From a virus, in the IMG/VR virus record IMGVR_UViG_3300034521_000354, positions 1 to 22,424 of that record: a stretch of DNA of 22,424 bases; one strand, given 5' to 3'. Shown here piece after piece: positions 6,300 to 22,250 of this stretch. The notes under the pieces are model-generated. The model did not search any database and was not told where the DNA came from. It saw only the letters and a list, made by a program, of their open reading frames with translations. How positions within the stretch are numbered: position 1 is the stretch's first letter; each line of letters starts with the position of its first letter. The position numbers and the translations under genes are program-made.

Positions 6300-6344
6300 T
6301 GATTCTTAATTGTCTTTTCATTATAATTAAAAAGGAGGCGTAAA

Positions 6345-6452
6345 ATGACTTATTTTATAATAATTATAGCGTTAATTATATCTTATTATTTGGCGAATAA
6401 TTTAATTAAGCCTATTGATTCAGATCCATTTCGAAATTATGACGACGATTAA
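6345..6452 (+). CDS. 35-aa membrane protein, opposite strand to tail operon
   Basis: A short plus-strand ORF of 35 codons preceded by an excellent ribosome site (AAAGGAGG, 7 nt before ATG). The product has a hydrophobic stretch at residues 4-18 (Phe/Ile/Leu-rich), then a polar acidic tail ending YDDD. Topology would be a single-pass inner-membrane miniprotein. It fills the otherwise empty interval between the tape-measure start and the end of the frameshifted chaperone extension, with which its stop region overlaps by 4 nt in convergent orientation. No family is recognised. Against it: no obvious plus-strand promoter was identified, and short hydrophobic ORFs arise easily in AT-rich DNA. The strong ribosome site is the main support. 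Confidence 0.5.
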   Translation: MTYFIIIIALIISYYLANNLIKPIDSDPFRNYDDD

Positions 6453-6999
6453 CTTTTCTTATATTTTTTCCATTCCGCAATCCTGAATTTCAACATATTA
6501 AGATATTTTACTCGCTTCATATAATAATAATCATAGCACTCTGCCACATCAATTTTTTCTATTAATGCAGCTTTGCTAATATCTCCTTCGGCGAGTTCAT
6601 ATTTAATAGAATCTATTTCATTAAAATCGATTTGAGGACTATAAGGTATAACGTCTAACTTGCTGAAGCCTTCAAGTTCTTTTTCAGAACGTTTTATCTC
6701 AGTATTTAATCTTATAAGGCGTTCTCGATATTTTTTATCAAACTTTCTTTTCGCGAAAAAAAATCCTCTATGATTTTGGTTATGGTATCAATATCATTCT
6801 CATACAATTCGCCTTCAATGGGATTGTCAAGAATAAGATTCAATAATTGAATTAATAAACCATTTGCGAGCAAAGATATTAATGCATTGGGAGAATTATC
6901 GCCATGCTGTAATTCGGATAATAATTTAATTATCTCCCCCCATTCTTTCAGGGTATATTTTTCTTTCAGTTTATAATTTTTCCCGTTTATCTGGTACAT
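6449..6999 (-). CDS. Frameshifted tail assembly chaperone (G-T-type fusion)
   Basis: The -1 frame that overlaps the end of the 95-aa gene stays open for about 100 codons after it but has no start codon of its own before an internal Met near its C-terminus. Joined by a -1 slip at T TTT TTT (6763-6757), the product is about 183 aa: 81 residues of the short protein, then 102 residues beginning FAKRKFDKKYRERL and ending EWKKYKKS. This is the layout of lambda G/GT and the analogous Mu-type tail chaperones, which sit just upstream of the tape measure, as here. The extension is charged, helical and rich in Lys/Glu/Tyr, as T-domains often are. A second possible slip site, A AAA AAT, lies at 6736-6730. 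No strong downstream stem-loop was seen. The frames and heptamer are observed; the frameshift itself is inferred. Confidence 0.75.
6712..6999 (-). CDS. Tail assembly chaperone, short form
   Basis: A 95-aa protein translated from ATG with AGAGGAG as ribosome site, overlapping the preceding gene by 29 nt. It is mostly helical: MYQINGKNYKLKEKYTLKEWGEIIKLLSEL at the N-terminus, then a Leu/Ile-rich middle. It resembles the gpG-like first half of tail chaperone pairs, which coat the tape measure during tail assembly. The stop TAA at 6714-6712 lies about 43 nt beyond the slippery heptamer, so ordinary translation makes this form and a minority of ribosomes would make the long form. Assignment is from gene order and the frameshift arrangement rather than a sequence signature. 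Confidence 0.75.
   Translation of the reverse strand: MYQINGKNYKLKEKYTLKEWGEIIKLLSELQHGDNSPNALISLLANGLLIQLLNLILDNPIEGELYENDIDTITKIIEDFFSRKESLIKNIENAL
6757..6763 (-). promoter_or_regulatory. Candidate -1 ribosomal slippery heptamer
   Basis: On the coding strand the run of eight T is read GAT TTT TTT TCG, giving T TTT TTT in the zero frame, a canonical X XXY YYZ heptamer. A -1 slip enters the frame that continues open to 6449. It is a plausible alternative that the A AAA AAT at 6736-6730 is used instead. Confidence 0.6.
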
Positions 7000-7232: not shown

Positions 7233-8183
7233 TTAATAGCCGAATCTGACAGTTCCGCCGGTCGTACCCTTTGTATCAGAGACATCTCCGCCGTTTGTAT
7301 CGCCATAAAGGAATTGTATCGAATATAACGGCACGCGTCCTTCAAGCGTTATCGCAAGAGTTCTCTCGTCGTCATTAATCATGAATTCGTCAGTCTGTGA
7401 TAATACATTAGCATTGAAATCGAATTTATCATAGTAATTGCCTGCATTCTTTTCCTGCCATATTACAGGATCGAGCAGACCTTTATTAAGACGATTAACA
7501 AGATCTTGAATTGAAGCTTCTCTTCCGGTAATTTGCAGAGTGATCATAATATTATCCGTTAAGGACATATTCACTTCCTCTGCTTTTTTGCTCTCGTTTT
7601 TTATATTGAGTGAGCGTGCAGTAAAATATATAGACGAGCCGAGCGATACCGTAGCGGGCTTTTCAATTTTGTCCAGCCTGGCTGCGCGATATAAGGTAAG
7701 ATCAGTGCCGTCGTCGGTAATGGAAGGGAATGTAACTTCTGTAGTATTGTCGGCGGTATCTATGAATGCAACTGCGTCCTCAAATGGCAATGCCCGTTCT
7801 AGTGTTATTTTGCATCTGCGTCCGTCCATATCATATGTCAAATCGAAGTCCAATCCGAATTCTTTACCATTATCGAATTTGAAGACGTCTTTGTTAGAGG
7901 CATTCTGTTTCTGCGTGATAATCTGCGCGTCTACATTCCCGTTTACCCAATCGAGCATTTTTTTAAGAGTGAAAATCGTAGGCTGCAACATTTCGCCTTC
8001 GAGATTAAAATTGATTGCATTTCGGAATTTGCGTTTGCGGCTATCTTCCTGCTGCTTATAATGACTTATTTTCAATGTTGCATCTTTACGAATTCCGAAT
8101 GCGATTGGGTCTACCGGGGTTGTGCTCAAAGTTCCTTTGTCGCAAAGTACAATTTGTTTTAATCCTGCCGGAGCGTAAGGCAT
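7233..8183 (-). CDS. Putative major tail tube protein
   Basis: A 316-aa protein beginning MPYAPAGLKQIVLCDKGTLS, rich in beta strands, with a middle segment KFDNGKEFGLDFDLTYDMDGRRCKITLERALPF typical of tail-tube-like beta sandwiches, and a Gly/Thr-rich C-terminus after the strand-forming LEGRVPLYSIQFLYG. No sheath-type gene is next to it. The position, between the lysis genes and the chaperone/tape-measure genes, is that of the tube gene in siphovirus-type tails. It starts 1 nt after the holin-like stop; its AAGGAGG ribosome site lies inside the last codons of that gene (Glu-Gly-Gly-stop), coupling the two. Abundance and tube role are inferred from position and composition. Confidence 0.7.
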   Translation of the reverse strand: MPYAPAGLKQIVLCDKGTLSTTPVDPIAFGIRKDATLKISHYKQQEDSRKRKFRNAINFNLEGEMLQPTIFTLKKMLDWVNGNVDAQIITQKQNASNKDVFKFDNGKEFGLDFDLTYDMDGRRCKITLERALPFEDAVAFIDTADNTTEVTFPSITDDGTDLTLYRAARLDKIEKPATVSLGSSIYFTARSLNIKNESKKAEEVNMSLTDNIMITLQITGREASIQDLVNRLNKGLLDPVIWQEKNAGNYYDKFDFNANVLSQTDEFMINDDERTLAITLEGRVPLYSIQFLYGDTNGGDVSDTKGTTGGTVRFGY

Positions 8184-8184
8184 T

Positions 8185-8634
8185 TTATCCTCCTTCTGGT
8201 ATCCTCAACTTAAAGAATGTTAATATTTGTCTGACTATCTCCCAAGTGGATAAACCATTTGCAATTAATGTTGATATAAGTCCGTATATTATTATATAAT
8301 ACCACTCGACGAGATTAAATATCCCAAGATTAAAGATATATCCGAGAGCGCTTAAAATTAATCCTATAACACCGCTGATTATGATAGTATGCCCGTCTTG
8401 AGTGCCTAATAATTTTTTAATATATGCCGTAATGATCAGAATTCCGGCAGAGAGCGCAGAAATCGAAGCGAAGAGATCATCCGGCATAGAAACGTTCTGG
8501 AGCGTATTGACAGCGGCTCCATCTGTTATCGCTGCGAGTAATGGAGGCGAAATACCAGGACAAATAATACTCATAATAGAAATCATTGTCATCGAGATAA
8601 TGATCAGCATTATTATTGTTTTTCTTCTTTTCAT
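8185..8634 (-). CDS. Holin-like membrane protein
   Basis: A 149-aa very hydrophobic protein with four likely membrane segments at about 6-26, 54-74, 83-103 and 109-128, a basic N-terminus (MKRRK) and a short C-terminal tail ending IPEGG. It sits directly downstream of an M15 peptidase gene and a spanin-like gene, so it is the best candidate in the window for the inner-membrane holin that times lysis. The ribosome site GAGGAG precedes the ATG; the spanin-like gene ends 10 nt upstream. The first hydrophobic segment might instead be a signal sequence, giving a three-segment protein. No specific holin family is recognised. Confidence 0.65.
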   Translation of the reverse strand: MKRRKTIIMLIIISMTMISIMSIICPGISPPLLAAITDGAAVNTLQNVSMPDDLFASISALSAGILIITAYIKKLLGTQDGHTIIISGVIGLILSALGYIFNLGIFNLVEWYYIIIYGLISTLIANGLSTWEIVRQILTFFKLRIPEGG

Positions 8635-16730: not shown

Positions 16731-18113
16731 ATGGGAGTCCAGGAATTAACATCCGAAATAGCGATACGACAACATTTTCAGCAAATGATAACCTATTGGA
16801 ATATGCTTCCGGACCCGGATCCTGTGTTGCGCAAAATGGGCAAAGATATAACCATATACGAAGATTTACTCACTGACTCTCACCTATTTTCGACTATTCA
16901 ACAGAGAAAAGCAGGAGTTTTAGCGCAAAATTGGGAGCTACGACAGGAAGAGAGCAACCCAAAAGAATATGAGATAATTAAAGAAATATTCGATAATATT
17001 GATTTTGAAAATATTATAGATCAAATATTAAATGCTCCTTTATTCGGACAGACTATACTCGAAATTGTATGGCAAAAAGACGGCAGCTATTTAATTCCAG
17101 GGAAGATAGAAGAAAAACCTTTGGAATGGTTCTATTATGACGATTATAATAATCTGCGTCTTAAATCGGAAAAAATAAATGATACCGGGGAGTTGTTGAA
17201 TCCCTTAAAATTTATCACTATTCGTTATAAACCGACTTATAAAAATCCGTATGGACAAAGATTATTATCAAGATGCTTTTGGCCTGTAACGTTTAAGAGA
17301 GGCGGATTAAAATTTTGGATTATGTTCACAGAGAAATACGGCAATCCGTTCATATTCGGAAAACAGCCGAGGAATACATCGCAAGAAGATACTAATATAT
17401 TATTGGATGCATTGAAAAATATGATACAGGATGCGGTAGCTGTAATTCCGGATGACTCATCCGTTTCAATTTTAGAAGCATCCAAAACGAGTTCCGTAGA
17501 AACTTTTAAAGAATTAATGAATTTTCTGAATAATGAAATAAGCAAAGCTATATTAACGCAAACGCTGACTACAGAAGTTCAAGATGTCGGAGCATATTCC
17601 GCATCCAAAACCATGAGCGATATGCTGTATTTAGTTCAACAATCCGACAAACGATTGGTAGAAAGAGCGTTTAATAGATTAATCAATTTAATTTATGAAA
17701 TAAATTTTAATTCTAATAATAAGCCGAAATTCATATTATATGAAGAAGAGGACGTCGACAAAACATTGGCCGAGAGGGATCAGATATTGGTAAACACCGG
17801 CGTTAAATTTACGAAAGAATATTATATTAAGAACTATAACCTTATGGAGGATGATTTCGACCTGGCTGATAATATTAGTTCCTTTGCAGAAAAAGCCGGC
17901 GCCGATATATTAGATAAAATCCCGGATAAACTTCTTCAAATGCAGATTGAAGGGACATTAAAACCTATTATATCGCTAATTAATGAAGGCGAATCTTATG
18001 ATATAATTATGGAAAATCTCGCGAAACTATACCCGAAAATGAACGCGAATCAACTTGAAGAATTATTAACTAAATTAATATTCATTAGCGAATTAAATGG
18101 CAGATTATCCTGA
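16731..18113 (+). CDS. Portal protein (Mu gp29-like, DUF935)
   Basis: A 460-aa portal of the DUF935 family, the dodecameric channel through which DNA enters the head. Seen are LPDPDPVLRKMGKDITIYEDLLTDSHLFSTIQQRKAGV in the N-terminal part, then DILN-like FGQTILEIVW, and the central RGGLKFWIMFTEKYGNPFIFGK. Length is somewhat shorter than the typical 500 or so. GAGG precedes the ATG. It overlaps the F-like gene by 17 nt. Confidence 0.92.
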   Translation: MGVQELTSEIAIRQHFQQMITYWNMLPDPDPVLRKMGKDITIYEDLLTDSHLFSTIQQRKAGVLAQNWELRQEESNPKEYEIIKEIFDNIDFENIIDQILNAPLFGQTILEIVWQKDGSYLIPGKIEEKPLEWFYYDDYNNLRLKSEKINDTGELLNPLKFITIRYKPTYKNPYGQRLLSRCFWPVTFKRGGLKFWIMFTEKYGNPFIFGKQPRNTSQEDTNILLDALKNMIQDAVAVIPDDSSVSILEASKTSSVETFKELMNFLNNEISKAILTQTLTTEVQDVGAYSASKTMSDMLYLVQQSDKRLVERAFNRLINLIYEINFNSNNKPKFILYEEEDVDKTLAERDQILVNTGVKFTKEYYIKNYNLMEDDFDLADNISSFAEKAGADILDKIPDKLLQMQIEGTLKPIISLINEGESYDIIMENLAKLYPKMNANQLEELLTKLIFISELNGRLS

Positions 18114-19344
18114 TATAAAGCTCGCTATAGGTCTTAAGCCTGAACAAATTATTGATTGGTATAGAAATAAGGGCTATAAAATTTCCTGGAATTGGAAGGA
18201 TACCTGGGAGGAATCTCATATAAAAGCTTTCACTGTTACGAAGGCAATGAAACTCGATATTCTTTCCGATATAAGGGATGAACTACAAAAATCAATGGAA
18301 GAAGGCTTATCATTCCAACAATTCAAAGAAAACTTAAAACCGGTCTTAAAAGCTAAAGGCTGGTGGGGGAAGGTTAAAGCAAAAGATGTTCCTTCGGATT
18401 TTCCACTGCCGCCAAATATTGACCCGGAAAAAGAAGTGCTTCTCGGTTCGCCATGGCGTCTCAGGACAATATACAGAACAAATATGACCGTTGCATATCA
18501 AGCCGGCCATTATCGTTCCATGATCGATAATATAAAAGACAGACCTTACTGGATGTATAATGCCGTGCTCGATAGTAATACAAGACCATCACACAGGGCA
18601 TTACACGGCAAAGTTTTCCGCGCTGACGATCCTATTTGGGATAAAATTTATCCGCCAAACGATTGGGGCTGCAGATGTACGGTAATCCCTCTTGATAAAG
18701 ATGACCTAAAAGAAATGAATCTAAAAGTAACCAGAGGCAGTGATGAACTCGTTCGCAAGCTAAATCCGGGCAAGGGCTGGGATTATAATCCGGGCAAAGC
18801 AGCGCTTGAGTTTGATACTACATTCGGAGGGAATCTCAAGCTTAACGACAATCAGCCAACATATAAAGATTTTGCAAGACCATCTGTGAAAGATATAAAA
18901 AATAGAATTCCCTCACCAGAAAAATTGCCCTCTGTTAAAGAGATAGGCGAGGAGAAATTTATTGAGCTGCTCAAAAAAGAATTTGATCTTACCAAATCTG
19001 ATTTTTCTGTGCTCAATACGGCTGACGATGATAAAAGTATATTTACATTAGATAGATTAAAACATATTTACGAAAAGCAAGATGGGCGGGAACGTTATGC
19101 ATCTTACATAAAGCCAACATTGCAAGACCCTTCCGAAATCTGGCTATCTGAATATATTAACAAAGAAGGACAAATTGAACTGCGAAAAAGTTATATTGGA
19201 TTATTCAAAGACAAAGATACAAACGAAGATATTTTTGTTGTTTTAAGGCAGGAGAAAGACTCCTTTATTTTTTGGAATGCTTTCGAACGTGAGAGAGGTA
19301 AAATTGATAAATTGAGGAAAGGTTACTTAAAATACTGGAAATGA
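18097..19344 (+). CDS. Mu F-like minor head protein fused to PBECR-type nuclease-like domain
   Basis: A 415-aa two-part protein. Residues about 1-245 are Mu F/SPP1 gp7-like head morphogenesis: YRTNMTVAYQAGHYRSM (126-142), D159-S-N-T-R-P-S-H166 with H170, and the PPNDWGCRC zinc-like motif (186-194). Residues about 283-415 form a separate domain with FTLDRLKHIYE (H323), RERYASYIKPTLQDPSEIW (331-349), RKSYIGLF (363-370), VVLRQ, and a NAFERERG...RKGYL end. This matches by eye the phage-Barnase-EndoU-ColicinE5/D-RelE-like nuclease (PBECR) domains known from fusions with phage head proteins. Such domains may enter the host with the virion. The fusion is seen; toxic nuclease activity is inference. 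It overlaps the portal gene, and ends at the convergent RNA-like element. Confidence 0.88.
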   Translation: MADYPDIKLAIGLKPEQIIDWYRNKGYKISWNWKDTWEESHIKAFTVTKAMKLDILSDIRDELQKSMEEGLSFQQFKENLKPVLKAKGWWGKVKAKDVPSDFPLPPNIDPEKEVLLGSPWRLRTIYRTNMTVAYQAGHYRSMIDNIKDRPYWMYNAVLDSNTRPSHRALHGKVFRADDPIWDKIYPPNDWGCRCTVIPLDKDDLKEMNLKVTRGSDELVRKLNPGKGWDYNPGKAALEFDTTFGGNLKLNDNQPTYKDFARPSVKDIKNRIPSPEKLPSVKEIGEEKFIELLKKEFDLTKSDFSVLNTADDDKSIFTLDRLKHIYEKQDGRERYASYIKPTLQDPSEIWLSEYINKEGQIELRKSYIGLFKDKDTNEDIFVVLRQEKDSFIFWNAFERERGKIDKLRKGYLKYWK

Positions 19345-19345
19345 C

Positions 19346-19419
19346 GCCCAGCCTTTTCAAGTCCCGTGCCTTGCTGGGCACCGCTTTCAGTTAACGCCAC
19401 GGGGCAACTGAAAGGTCGG
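19346..19419. ncRNA. Candidate structured RNA with complementary hairpin loops
   Basis: Between the convergent F-like and gpG-like genes. Hairpin 1 pairs GCCCAGC (19346-19352) with GCTGGGC (19373-19379) around a 20-nt loop. Hairpin 2 pairs CTTTCAGTT (19384-19392) with AACTGAAAG (19406-19414) around a 13-nt loop, and its base may extend by CCG/CGG with a 2-nt bulge. GTCCCGTG in loop 1 (19361-19368) is complementary to CACGGGGC in loop 2 (19398-19405), eight pairs with one G-T. Two perfect stems plus loop complementarity suggests a kissing or pseudoknotted RNA; no T-tract follows closely. Strand of action is unknown. A bidirectional terminator is the main alternative. Confidence 0.6.
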
Positions 19420-19436
19420 TAAACAAATTTATTATT

Positions 19437-19961
19437 TCATCTCTTACTTGTCAATGCCGAAATTATTTTCTCTTTTATCTTCTTAATATCATTTTCATTT
19501 AATTTCATGAACGGTCTGGCTGGTATCCTTATAGAACTCATCTTATTCTGCTTAGGTCTTTTTGTCGATTTCCCCGAGCTCGATTTTCTTAAAAAAGTCT
19601 TTAGTGAACTCCTATGTATTATCCCGCCATAATTTTGTATTGCAGCATAAATCAAATTTGTGCTTACTTGTGCATAATTTTCACCGTAGCTGCTTATTAT
19701 ACTTCTTTTAAGTTGCCCGGTCCTCTGCAATATCTTACCAGGCCAATATCCTTTACTCTGTCTCTGTTTTATTGTTTCGTGTGATAATCTTTGCCATTGT
19801 TTGCCAACTCGTCGCCCTTCCGTTTCAAAATTCTTTAATATTGCCGTTCGCATAGTTTCTGCTACCGCAGCCATTAATTTGCTTTTATCCTGAAGTCTCT
19901 GTTTTAAGAGCTCAATAATTTCTGGTGATTTAAATTCATTTTGCATTATTTTCTGTATCAT
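19437..19961 (-). CDS. Phage virion morphogenesis protein (Mu gpG-like)
   Basis: A protein of about 174 aa in the Mu gpG/virion morphogenesis family. The C-terminal part RLSHETIKQRQSKGYWPGKILQRTGQLKRSI, LIYAAIQNYGGIIHR and IPARPFMKLN matches the family: substrate-like W..L...T...R, GGxI and PARPF..L. It acts in head-tail completion or tail assembly. The start is uncertain: ATG at 19961 (used here), ATG at 19946, or TTG at 19964; all overlap the end of the Mor-like gene. It is the only virion gene of the right-hand leftward block and converges with the F-like gene. Confidence 0.85.
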   Translation of the reverse strand: MIQKIMQNEFKSPEIIELLKQRLQDKSKLMAAVAETMRTAILKNFETEGRRVGKQWQRLSHETIKQRQSKGYWPGKILQRTGQLKRSIISSYGENYAQVSTNLIYAAIQNYGGIIHRSSLKTFLRKSSSGKSTKRPKQNKMSSIRIPARPFMKLNENDIKKIKEKIISALTSKR

Positions 19962-20250
19962 CAAATAAATTTTGTTGATTATTTAATGTAATCTTTTGTG
20001 CACCGATTTTGTAAACTAACCTCTCACTTACTCTTAACTCCCGTGCTAATTCCTTCTCACTCTTAGAACCGAAGTATTTTCTTATATATTCCTCTTTCAT
20101 TTGCATAATGGGTTTTTCCGAAAAATATATTCCTGTTTTAGCAAATATCTCGTATAATTTCATTAAGGTATCAATGCCCACTATTTCTTCAAGGAGTAAA
20201 AGATCATCTTTTAGAAATTTCTTATAATTTATTTTTTTATACCATTCCAT
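19936..20250 (-). CDS. mor: Mor-like transcription activator
   Basis: A 104-aa protein with the pattern of the Mor/C activator family. An N-terminal helical dimerisation segment with LLLLEEIVGIDTLMKLYEIFAKTGIYF (17-43, including G40-x-Y42) is followed by the helix-turn-helix IRKYFGSKSEKELARELRVSERLVYKI (56-82). Mor in Mu activates the middle promoter and C the late promoters; here only one such gene is visible, so it may serve both or a second copy may be outside. Location between GemA and the late genes fits the switch role. It begins 8 nt after the GemA stop, with AAAGG as ribosome site. Confidence 0.85.
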   Translation of the reverse strand: MEWYKKINYKKFLKDDLLLLEEIVGIDTLMKLYEIFAKTGIYFSEKPIMQMKEEYIRKYFGSKSEKELARELRVSERLVYKIGAQKITLNNQQNLFDDTENNAK

Positions 20251-20258
20251 ATATACCT

Positions 20259-20693
20259 TTATAATGATTTTATCGCTTTTACTATTTTCCTAATATCAGA
20301 AATAAGCAGCCATTCAAGGCGCTCTTTCCCTGTTATTCGTTTGACGAATGAGAGAAAAGCTGCTTCAGTTTTATTATGAACTCGGCGCGACGTCATCCAC
20401 ATCGCTTCGATCATTCTCAGTTGCCGCGGAGTTGCGTAATGCTCCTTAAGTTTTTCATTATAACGTATTCCGAGTTCGTCGTATTTCCGGCGAATATTAT
20501 CTCTGCGCATCTTCTTCAATTCCGGGGGCAATAGTTTCTCCAGCTTTTTTATAAAATCCTGCGCGTCTTCATATGATAATTCTTTTGATGTTGTAGCTCC
20601 GTAGCCTTCCAAAGCGGCGCCGTATTCTTCGTCTGATAATCCAAGTCTGTTTTTAAGAGTATGTATTTTTTTTATTTGTTCTTTTGTTATCAT
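20259..20693 (-). CDS. gemA: GemA-like (Mu gp16, DUF1018) regulatory protein
   Basis: A 144-aa protein of the GemA/gp16 family. Recognisable are ITKEQIKKIHTLKNRLGLSDEEYGAALEGYG at the N-terminus, SYEDAQDFIKKLEK (40-53), then YATPRQLRMIEAMWMTSRRV in the second half and the end LISDIRKIVKAIKSL. In Mu GemA affects host gene expression and DNA supercoiling during early growth, and its gene precedes mor, as it does here. It overlaps the upstream winged-helix gene by ATGA. Confidence 0.93.
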   Translation of the reverse strand: MITKEQIKKIHTLKNRLGLSDEEYGAALEGYGATTSKELSYEDAQDFIKKLEKLLPPELKKMRRDNIRRKYDELGIRYNEKLKEHYATPRQLRMIEAMWMTSRRVHNKTEAAFLSFVKRITGKERLEWLLISDIRKIVKAIKSL

Positions 20694-20998
20694 TGGAAAT
20701 CTAACCTAAGTTGTTCGCTTATCTTTTTAGCTTTCCATAAACTTACCGCTTTCCCGCTCGTAGGACTTATCCCTACGTCATAGAAATATACAAGTCCCAT
20801 TTCTCTCAATTCGTAAACGCGAGGCGTTATCTGATGCGGATAACAATTCAATGTAATCGCGATAAATTCGGTGCTGCAAGGTCCGTATTCTTTGATTATA
20901 TTATAAACCCTGCGCTGACTTTTGTTTAATTTTTCCAGCTGATCAAGATATGCCAAGTCTCTTATTTTTTCCGGGTAATATCCTTCTCTCTTACGCAT
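20690..20998 (-). CDS. Winged-helix-like protein
   Basis: A 102-aa protein with a winged-helix pattern: LNKSQRRVYNIIKEYGPCSTEFIAITLNCYPHQITPRVYELREMGLVYF (24-72), where the Cys/Ser region is the turn and the HQITPRVYELREMG helix the recognition helix, then a strand-turn-strand wing (YDVGISPTSGKAVSLWK). The likely role is DNA binding in middle or early regulation; target unknown. It overlaps the upstream gene by 8 nt and GemA by 4 nt. Confidence 0.75.
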   Translation of the reverse strand: MRKREGYYPEKIRDLAYLDQLEKLNKSQRRVYNIIKEYGPCSTEFIAITLNCYPHQITPRVYELREMGLVYFYDVGISPTSGKAVSLWKAKKISEQLRLDFQ

Positions 20999-21362
20999 TG
21001 TGCTTGCACATTATATTATTATTATATGCCTCCCAGGTGAAATATTTGCTCCCCCCCTTTTTTTTCTTCGCTCCTTCTTTATCCCATAATTTAATTTTAT
21101 TCTTATGAAGTAGATTCGATAAATATTGAGCTGAAATGCCATATTTCCTCCGTATCTGCTGCCTGGTCATTTTTTTCTTCTTATATATTTCAATGATCTC
21201 TTCGACGTTAAATTTTTGCTTGGTATCCCATAATTCCATGCCGGATTCTTTTATTTTTTTATATAGATACATTTCATTTATTCCATATTGCGCCACTATG
21301 CTTTTTCTGTCCATTATGCGATTCTTGTAGTAGTTTAATATTTCCTCAATATTGTATTTCAT
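20991..21362 (-). CDS. Tandem helix-turn-helix protein
   Basis: A 123-aa protein built from an internal duplication: two ~45-aa units, residues about 3-47 and 50-95, each of the form (Y/F)N(I/V)EEI...YK, then a Q/R-I-x-x-x-YGI turn and a LYKKIK/LSNLLHK recognition-like helix, ending ELWD or KLWD. A basic, Lys-rich C-terminus follows. ATG at 21362 is used; an ATG at 21425 is possible but would overlap the upstream gene by 53 nt. A run of eight A then seven G (coding strand; forward 21051-21065) sits near the 3' end and could slip. Likely a small DNA-binding regulator. Confidence 0.7.
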   Translation of the reverse strand: MKYNIEEILNYYKNRIMDRKSIVAQYGINEMYLYKKIKESGMELWDTKQKFNVEEIIEIYKKKKMTRQQIRRKYGISAQYLSNLLHKNKIKLWDKEGAKKKKGGSKYFTWEAYNNNIMCKHNA

Positions 21363-21372
21363 AACCGGCTCT

Positions 21373-21558
21373 CTAACAATTTCGTTTTTTCTCGTAGATT
21401 TGCCAGAATAATCTTGAACGTTCATTATCGTCGTGTACTTTATTTATATATTTCCTGGCTCTGATTTGCTGTATAATATCGTTTAATGTAACTTTAAGCG
21501 CCTTTCTAACAGATTTTATTGCTAATCTCCAATGACTTTTAGCTGATAATGATAACAT
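21373..21558 (-). CDS. Basic 61-aa hypothetical protein
   Basis: A small basic, helical protein (MLSLSAKSHWRLAIKSVRK at the start, NDIIQQIRARKYINK in the middle). A G-run directly upstream (TAG of the preceding gene followed by G8, then AGTATG) is its ribosome-binding region. It lies 10 nt before the next gene and 10 nt after the one upstream. No family recognised. Confidence 0.6.
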   Translation of the reverse strand: MLSLSAKSHWRLAIKSVRKALKVTLNDIIQQIRARKYINKVHDDNERSRLFWQIYEKKRNC

Positions 21559-21568
21559 ACTCCCCCCC

Positions 21569-21862
21569 CTATGCTATTTCAAATCTGGGATGCGCGTTTC
21601 CGGAGTCGTCTATGATTACGACATCGTGAATTACGAATAATCCTCCGAGCGTATAGTCGCATCCTTTAGCTTCAGTAAAGCTGCCGATGCAGCTGAACCC
21701 GAAGTAATTGAATACGTCTTTTATATCTATACCGGCGTCGAGGAAATCCTGAACTGTTTGCTCGCATTTGCACGCGGGACATATTACTTTCCAATTTTCT
21801 ATTTTCTCGCCGTGCCTTTCGCGCAGCGAATCGATATATTCTTTAATTTTCATCTGTTTCAT
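21569..21862 (-). CDS. Cys-rich small hypothetical protein
   Basis: A 97-aa protein with a possible zinc ribbon: CPAC-K-C at 28-33 (VICPACKCEQ), then FSCIGSFTEAKGCDY with two further Cys (about 53 and 64). An N-terminal amphipathic helix (KIKEYIDSLRERHGEKIENWK) precedes it. The AAGGAG ribosome site is 7 nt before the ATG. It lies after the truncated methyltransferase gene. Function is unknown; the Cys pattern suggests metal binding. Confidence 0.65.
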   Translation of the reverse strand: MKQMKIKEYIDSLRERHGEKIENWKVICPACKCEQTVQDFLDAGIDIKDVFNYFGFSCIGSFTEAKGCDYTLGGLFVIHDVVIIDDSGNAHPRFEIA

Positions 21863-21908
21863 TGATACTCTCCTTGATTCTATAATTTTGATTTATTATC
21901 TCTTAGAT

Positions 21909-22250
21909 TTAATTGTCCCAAAAAACGCATTTAGCATTATATTTTAATAGAATTATTTCTTGATATAAACGCATGTCAGGATAATTAGCTATGCCTTTCC
22001 TTTTATGGTTAAGATTATGATTAATACGTGAATGCGTTGTACACGGCGGCGAAGACCAAATAAAATCATACTCATTTAAATGATCTAACAGGTACTGATG
22101 TGCATCGCCTACAATAATTTCGTCATGAGGAAAGAAACGTTGATATATCCCTGCTATATTAGGATCTATTTCTACTGCTGTAACCTTCGCCCAGGAAGGC
22201 CATAATCTTCTGTTTCCTCCTATTCCGCTATATAGATTCAATACCTTCAT
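21909..22250 (-). pseudogene. Truncated cytosine-5 DNA methyltransferase
   Basis: Only 113 aa remain of a phage-type C5 DNA methyltransferase. Motif I is intact (LNLYSGIGGN, 5-13), followed by motif II (VTAVEID) and the catalytic SSPPC70-T-T-H-S motif IV. The coding frame then ends NAKCVFWDN-TAA, where relatives continue with the ENV motif, target-recognition region and motifs VIII-X. No further methyltransferase sequence follows before the next gene at 21862. The end (VFWDN) resembles a later segment of the family (HYFWSN), which would fit an internal deletion. It is probably inactive alone, unless its missing half is elsewhere. Confidence 0.75.

Follow-up and report, generated by a model that had tools for sequence, protein, structure and literature searches.

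The window analysed here, the whole 22.4-kb (22,424-nt) virus contig of a Mu-like phage, carries genes for terminase, a Mu-type portal and MuF on its plus strand and genes for gpG, a Mor-like activator and GemA on its minus strand. The gpG gene shares the strand of Mor and GemA (19437-22250, minus) and converges with the late genes, unlike in Mu, where F and G are co-directional. The layout is that of a MuF toxin of a tailed phage, with a MuF domain followed by a C-terminal effector domain in a gene placed just 3' of the portal gene (PF06074).

18097-19344, plus strand: MuF-like minor head protein (F gene; Pfam PF04233, 99.2 bits)
MuF residues 294-414, plus strand: C-terminal PBECR2 domain (PF18810, 83.9 bits)
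19437-19964, minus strand: gpG-like tail-completion/neck protein (Phage_tail_S; PF05069, 83.5 bits; phrog_26)

Family membership predicts that the PBECR2 domain is an RNase delivered by the virion. Iyer et al. 2017 (PMC5512222) treat PBECR2 as a predicted RNase thought to be injected along with the DNA, describe Mu's domain as inactive and suggest RNA binding for that inactive domain. The structure model of the window's domain (pLDDT 86.8) has helices followed by a sheet; structure comparison gave weak matches, with two CDI toxins among the best rows (Z 4.5 and 3.8), and a Foldseek search found no match at E <= 1e-3, which says nothing against BECR membership. The slot after MuF toxins is normally occupied by a small ORF that is interpreted as encoding immunity (PMC5576092), and protein immunity in this setting is also described in PMC12226406. 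In the window, the MuF stop at 19344 and the convergent gpG end at 19437 enclose 92 nt, in which no small immunity ORF lies directly 3' of MuF and the RNA described below is the sole occupant.

A conserved kissing-loop structure in the MuF-gpG gap

A sequence-only reading of the gap had proposed two perfect stems whose loops pair over 8 nt. Both stems were borne out (stem 1, 19346-19352/19373-19379, 7 bp; stem 2, 19384-19392/19406-19414, 9 bp), within a full structure that is longer than had been proposed (19346-19420) and whose 3' end abuts the MuF stop codon.

19345-19420, minus strand: small kissing-loop RNA of about 76 nt (covariance model R1, 97.8 bits; 19-sequence alignment)
19380-19420, minus strand: 5' hairpin A, helices ACCG/CGGT and CTTTCAGTT/AACTGAAAG, inner GC/GC
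19346-19379, minus strand: 3' hairpin B, helices GCCCAG/CTGGGC and CAAG/CTTG
19398-19403, minus strand: kissing half in loop A (RNA CCCGUG), pairs with 19363-19368
19363-19368, minus strand: kissing half in loop B (RNA CACGGG), pairs with 19398-19403

In the RNA sense, the ACCG/CGGT helix lengthens hairpin A beyond the proposed stem, and the inner GC/GC closes a 6-nt loop, CCCGTG, with a 3-nt bulge on the 3' side. Inside loop 1, hairpin B forms a second helix (CAAG/CTTG, 19358-19361/19370-19373), with the loop GCACGGGA and a 6-nt bulge, AAAAGG, on the 3' side. The proposed loop-loop pairing is retained in its six Watson-Crick pairs (19363-19368/19398-19403), while its G-T pair exists on the plus strand only and becomes A-C on the RNA strand. 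The homologues confirm, well beyond chance expectation, that the arrangement is no accident, in agreement with 0 of 20,000 dinucleotide shuffles containing two such stems and a 6-bp loop-loop match, by criteria that were fixed after the real case was known. The fold energy of the region is unremarkable by itself (z -1.6 on the plus strand and -1.2 on the minus strand).

Homologues were collected by following MuF and gpG relatives among viral contigs, by running two pattern scans and by searching with the covariance model R1. The RNA family was found at the same MuF-gpG junction in these relatives, among them two genome-contig records with the labels Ignavibacterium and Bacteroidetes/Chlorobi group, and further matches came from six more genomes of the same class; a wider search of the phylum added zero genomes. 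Pattern matches in unrelated genomes (Collinsella, others) turned out on inspection to be chance matches in other sequence. In the alignment of 19 sequences, 18 of them distinct, 89.9% of cells pair, as against 30-41% with the partner slid, and compensatory changes on both sides occur at 25 of 31 pairs. The kissing helix is paired in 108/108 cells and shows double changes at three of its six positions, with the exchanges C-G/U-A, C-G/G-C and U-A/U-G/C-G. The covariance check that had been suggested for the two-hairpin model thus revealed compensatory changes in all helices, the loop-loop helix among them, and a conserved structured RNA lies at the junction. The further suggestion of a new family of kissing-loop phage RNA is supported by the 19 aligned homologues, by their covariation and by Rfam, which gave no match at gathering score and nothing credible at a low threshold. 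A blastn search against phage records gave no match to the element.

By covariance model matches there is one RNA copy per phage, except for two in the chimeric contig L107. The two inverted copies of L107/L112 had been considered as an invertible segment and were rejected as such, with CRISPR-like repeats joined to phage genes pointing to a probable chimeric assembly. This contig consists of two related phage segments joined via CRISPR-like repeats, and since the joins fall inside phage genes, assembly via spacer-protospacer identity is suggested, i.e., a host with spacers against the phage. In L010 (4242-4332, and likewise in L111), an IS-end-like sequence of about 20 nt replaces part of RNA loop A relative to the near-identical L009. 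The MuF gene of L103 (2907-5258) carries an intein-like insertion that brings the protein to 783 aa and itself contains a 295-aa ORF in the opposite orientation.

Strand, promoter and terminator

The direction of the RNA was assessed from wobble pairs and promoter-like sequence. GU-type changes favour the minus strand (23 GU versus 6 AC cells, many of the 23 coming from one pair), and the wobbles of the kissing helix are all G-U on that strand, so that the RNA strand is probably minus. These changes, together with a promoter at a fixed place, also argue against an element that acts as DNA only.

19424-19454, minus strand: predicted RNA promoter, TTGACA (19454-19449), 17 nt, TAAATTTG (19431-19424)

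The -10 box of the window is of the Bacteroidetes type (TAnnTTTG) and lies 3 nt before the first RNA base. By eye, a TTGACA-like box just before hairpin A was recognised in nearly all members, a TAnnTTTG-like box in most, and a U-run or separate terminator after the RNA in about eight. The 3' end of gpG overlaps the -35 region, and because the -35 box of the window coincides with the last gpG codons, part of its conservation may be coding. Sigma70-like promoters were scored in the gaps of 39 phages, and the best score was 9.04 on the minus strand versus 7.94 on the plus strand (p 1.8e-6) and 7.70 in shuffles (p 1.4e-9). Read from these sequence features, the RNA appears to be a small minus-strand gene with promoter-like sequence of its own and a predicted transcript.

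RNA presence is tied to an intact effector domain

Comparison of Mu-like phages revealed an RNA-sized gap beside 38/38 MuF proteins scored as nuclease-competent and 3/41 others, where long MuF proteins counted as competent unless they stood on an "inactive" list, which was compiled with the gaps already known; the Fisher p for this association (2e-19) takes no account of phylogeny. With catalytic residues assigned by alignment only, an RNA-sized gap or recognisable RNA accompanied the MuF-C His motif in 14/14 alignable cases with the His and 0/8 without it, as scored by eye. In a set of 99 non-redundant MuF loci, the short MuF proteins, which have no C-terminal domain, end within 11 nt of gpG in 27 of 39 cases, and 40 of 54 long ones are followed by an 83-157-nt gap. 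Six long MuF genes have a gap of <=26 nt (Mu, MuM16-1, DMS3, D3112, L265 and L098), and three short-MuF loci with gaps of at least 75 nt run counter to the linkage. Some short-MuF phages (L090, L091, L094, L100, L243, L247, L249, L255 and L261) has MuF-gpG gaps of 808-951 nt, several of which start a gene reading MTIDKKHLLNWVGGKRLLRK that is methyltransferase-like by eye.

Closely related phages bring the two traits into direct comparison. L033 (motif HADSQKH, gap 128) and L038 (motif lost, gap 20) are 94% identical over MuF residues 1-290; L264/L266 contrast with L265/L268 in the same way, L264 and L265 being a close pair that differs in both traits; and L012, from the window's own clade, has neither the PBECR2 domain nor the RNA. 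Neither the His motif nor the RNA is present in Mu, D108, DMS3, D3112 and MuM16-1. Mapped onto a tree built from the MuF part, the traits undergo about 18 and 17 changes that mostly coincide, and about 5 of 6 independent supported pairs are concordant and none discordant, although the pair test on supported branches alone is not significant (p 0.06). This tree test omitted SuMu, MH238466 and 3927AP2, which all have the gap; no His motif was recognised in SuMu, and the other two carry no His-motif score. The PBECR2 relatives L010 and L025 have Tyr in place of His, and the RNA is nonetheless present. Overall, the presence of the RNA is tied to an intact effector domain, and it tracks this domain rather than convergence, since structured RNAs also occur where F and gpG are co-directional. 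Retention of the RNA together with an intact key residue gives it the look of an RNA antidote.

Other structured RNAs in the same slot

In other Mu-like phages, the MuF-gpG slot holds different structured minus-strand RNAs. Their gaps fold better than shuffles (mean z -1.06, versus -0.06 for coding controls) and also carry minus-strand promoters. Several apparent families can be distinguished, including three-way-junction-like RNAs (L194, L195, L197 and L198), tRNA-like RNAs (L264, L266, L033, L041, L044, L057 and Pasteurella phage Pmp9) and further ones, and no common ancestry was detectable among the families of different phages. The tRNA-like members combine a GGTTCGAnnCC T-arm-like hairpin with a cloverleaf-like fold on the minus strand. 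They differ from tRNA genes in that ARAGORN called none of the slot RNAs with a normal anticodon, its one call being tRNA-???. For the window RNA, which is not tRNA-shaped, ARAGORN gave 0 genes and no cloverleaf with an anticodon. For L041, Rfam gave a tRNA match (36.7 bits) under permissive filters only, and it was gone at gathering settings. In SuMu (L192, 1506-1706), a 67-aa ORF stands after the tRNA-like gap and before gpG, possibly a protein immunity gene in addition to the RNA.

Orphan copies in bacterial genomes

Copies of the RNA away from the MuF-gpG junction were found in two genomes. L290 holds two (7935-8025 and 8334-8407, minus strand) past the trailer end of a CRISPR array of type II-C, where they adjoin degenerate repeats; one of the two copies has an insertion in hairpin A. 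In L291, a tandem pair (6323-6478, plus strand) lies close to genes for an SRP RNA and an AstE-like protein and has a promoter and a terminator; the kissing loops differ between the two copies and are fully compensated. Among the ORFs examined beside the L290 and L291 orphans, no toxin gene was recognised.

Proposed function and alternative explanations

Taken together, these observations make it probable, though with a good deal of room for doubt, that the RNA serves as an antidote, or decoy, to the virion-delivered RNase. Polymerase would start a few bases upstream of hairpin A and produce a minus-strand RNA of about 76 nt, whose two adjacent hairpins would be locked by the 6-bp kissing-loop helix. 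MuF, a late-gene product, would carry the PBECR2 RNase in the virion to the next host, while the RNA, transcribed from its own promoter both in the lysogen and in the producing cell, would bind the nuclease domain, acting as an inhibitor or as a decoy that resists cleavage, and would thereby protect the producer and its lysogenic siblings. Structured RNAs that appear unrelated to it would serve other BECR subtypes from the same slot in other Mu-like phages, and the orphan copies in bacterial chromosomes would represent acquired immunity. The corresponding general claim, to which we give slightly less than even weight, is of an RNA immunity class by which Mu-like phages guard producers from their own virion-delivered BECR RNases through dedicated antisense-strand RNAs (kissing-loop, three-way-junction and tRNA-like) that are lost with nuclease inactivation, with bacteria keeping orphans as acquired immunity.

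Among the alternatives, a role as partner, substrate or cargo of MuF, whether bound by the BECR domain, packaged or injected in RNP form, or required for head assembly in a pRNA-like manner, is rather unlikely but fares best. Such a role would fit the position of the RNA beside a head gene, its loss upon domain inactivation and the RNA binding that Iyer et al. suggest for Mu's inactive domain; yet phages with an inactive domain (Mu, DMS3) assemble without the RNA, the chromosomal orphans have no MuF beside them, and late cargo would not be expected to have its own promoter. We consider it unlikely, too, and more so, that the RNA regulates the late operon as a cis-antisense transcript, limiting MuF nuclease synthesis or read-through. 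The minus-strand promoter is indeed aimed at the 3' end of F, and the RNA abuts or overlaps the F stop codon, but antisense action needs no conserved fold, whereas this fold covaries; moreover, in several members a terminator immediately follows the RNA and would halt transcription before F, and orphan copies exist.

The sequence-only reading had also offered an exonuclease-resistant 3' end or a bidirectional stop, and a terminator or 3'-end protector for the gpG and F transcripts now appears very improbable, even though GC-rich hairpins do stand between convergent genes and the gpG operon could read into them. The window's copy has no U-tract, in five members a strong terminator stands separately next to the RNA, and the element has a minus-strand promoter of its own; structured RNAs also lie between co-directional F and gpG, the window's family also occurs as orphans, and the RNA vanishes with nuclease inactivation, following the nuclease and not convergence. 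An RNA anti-CRISPR or tracrRNA mimic, brought to mind by the two orphan copies at the far end of the type II-C array, is hardly credible, as no anti-repeat was found adjoining the L290 copies, a tracrRNA-like sequence belonging to that locus lies upstream of cas9 and is not matched by the RNA covariance model, and no CRISPR array came to notice at the other orphan locus.

If the antidote reading is true, the polymorphic toxins of a widespread phage group have a second kind of immunity, one that consists of RNA, and the absence of the RNA in classic Mu is explained by its inactive domain. PBECR and MuF-C domains would acquire a testable partner that may reveal their natural target, for which the tRNA-like partners hint at tRNA or another structured RNA. 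It would also establish a new family of natural kissing-loop RNAs with a protein target and make a simple neutralisation experiment possible.

Comparison with known systems

Among the open-access papers searched, none was found to report an RNA partner for MuF or PBECR proteins. The PBECR2/MuF_C domains of Iyer et al. 2017 (PF18810, PF18819) are the same domains as here, and the passages of that paper that were consulted describe no RNA partner for them. With the MuF polymorphic toxins of Jamet et al. 2017, the window shares the MuF N-terminal domain, the C-terminal effector, the place after the portal and an occupied immunity slot; the slot of those toxins contains a small immunity ORF, whereas that of the window contains an RNA gene.

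The closest functional analogue would be the antitoxins of type III toxin-antitoxin systems, although the operon layout differs. As in ToxIN, CptIN and TenpIN, an RNA with loop tertiary pairing lies beside a predicted endoribonuclease, and it is pseudoknotted through a covarying intramolecular kissing-loop helix, where ToxI forms an H-type pseudoknot. The definition of type III systems (PMC5086642) has the RNA as tandem repeats in the toxin's operon, placed before the toxin gene with an intervening terminator, and tandem copies of the window's family are found at one orphan locus. By contrast, the window RNA follows the toxin gene, is encoded on the other strand under its own promoter and usually occurs as a single copy; the putatively inhibited toxin is not ToxN-like but a BECR domain carried by a phage head protein.
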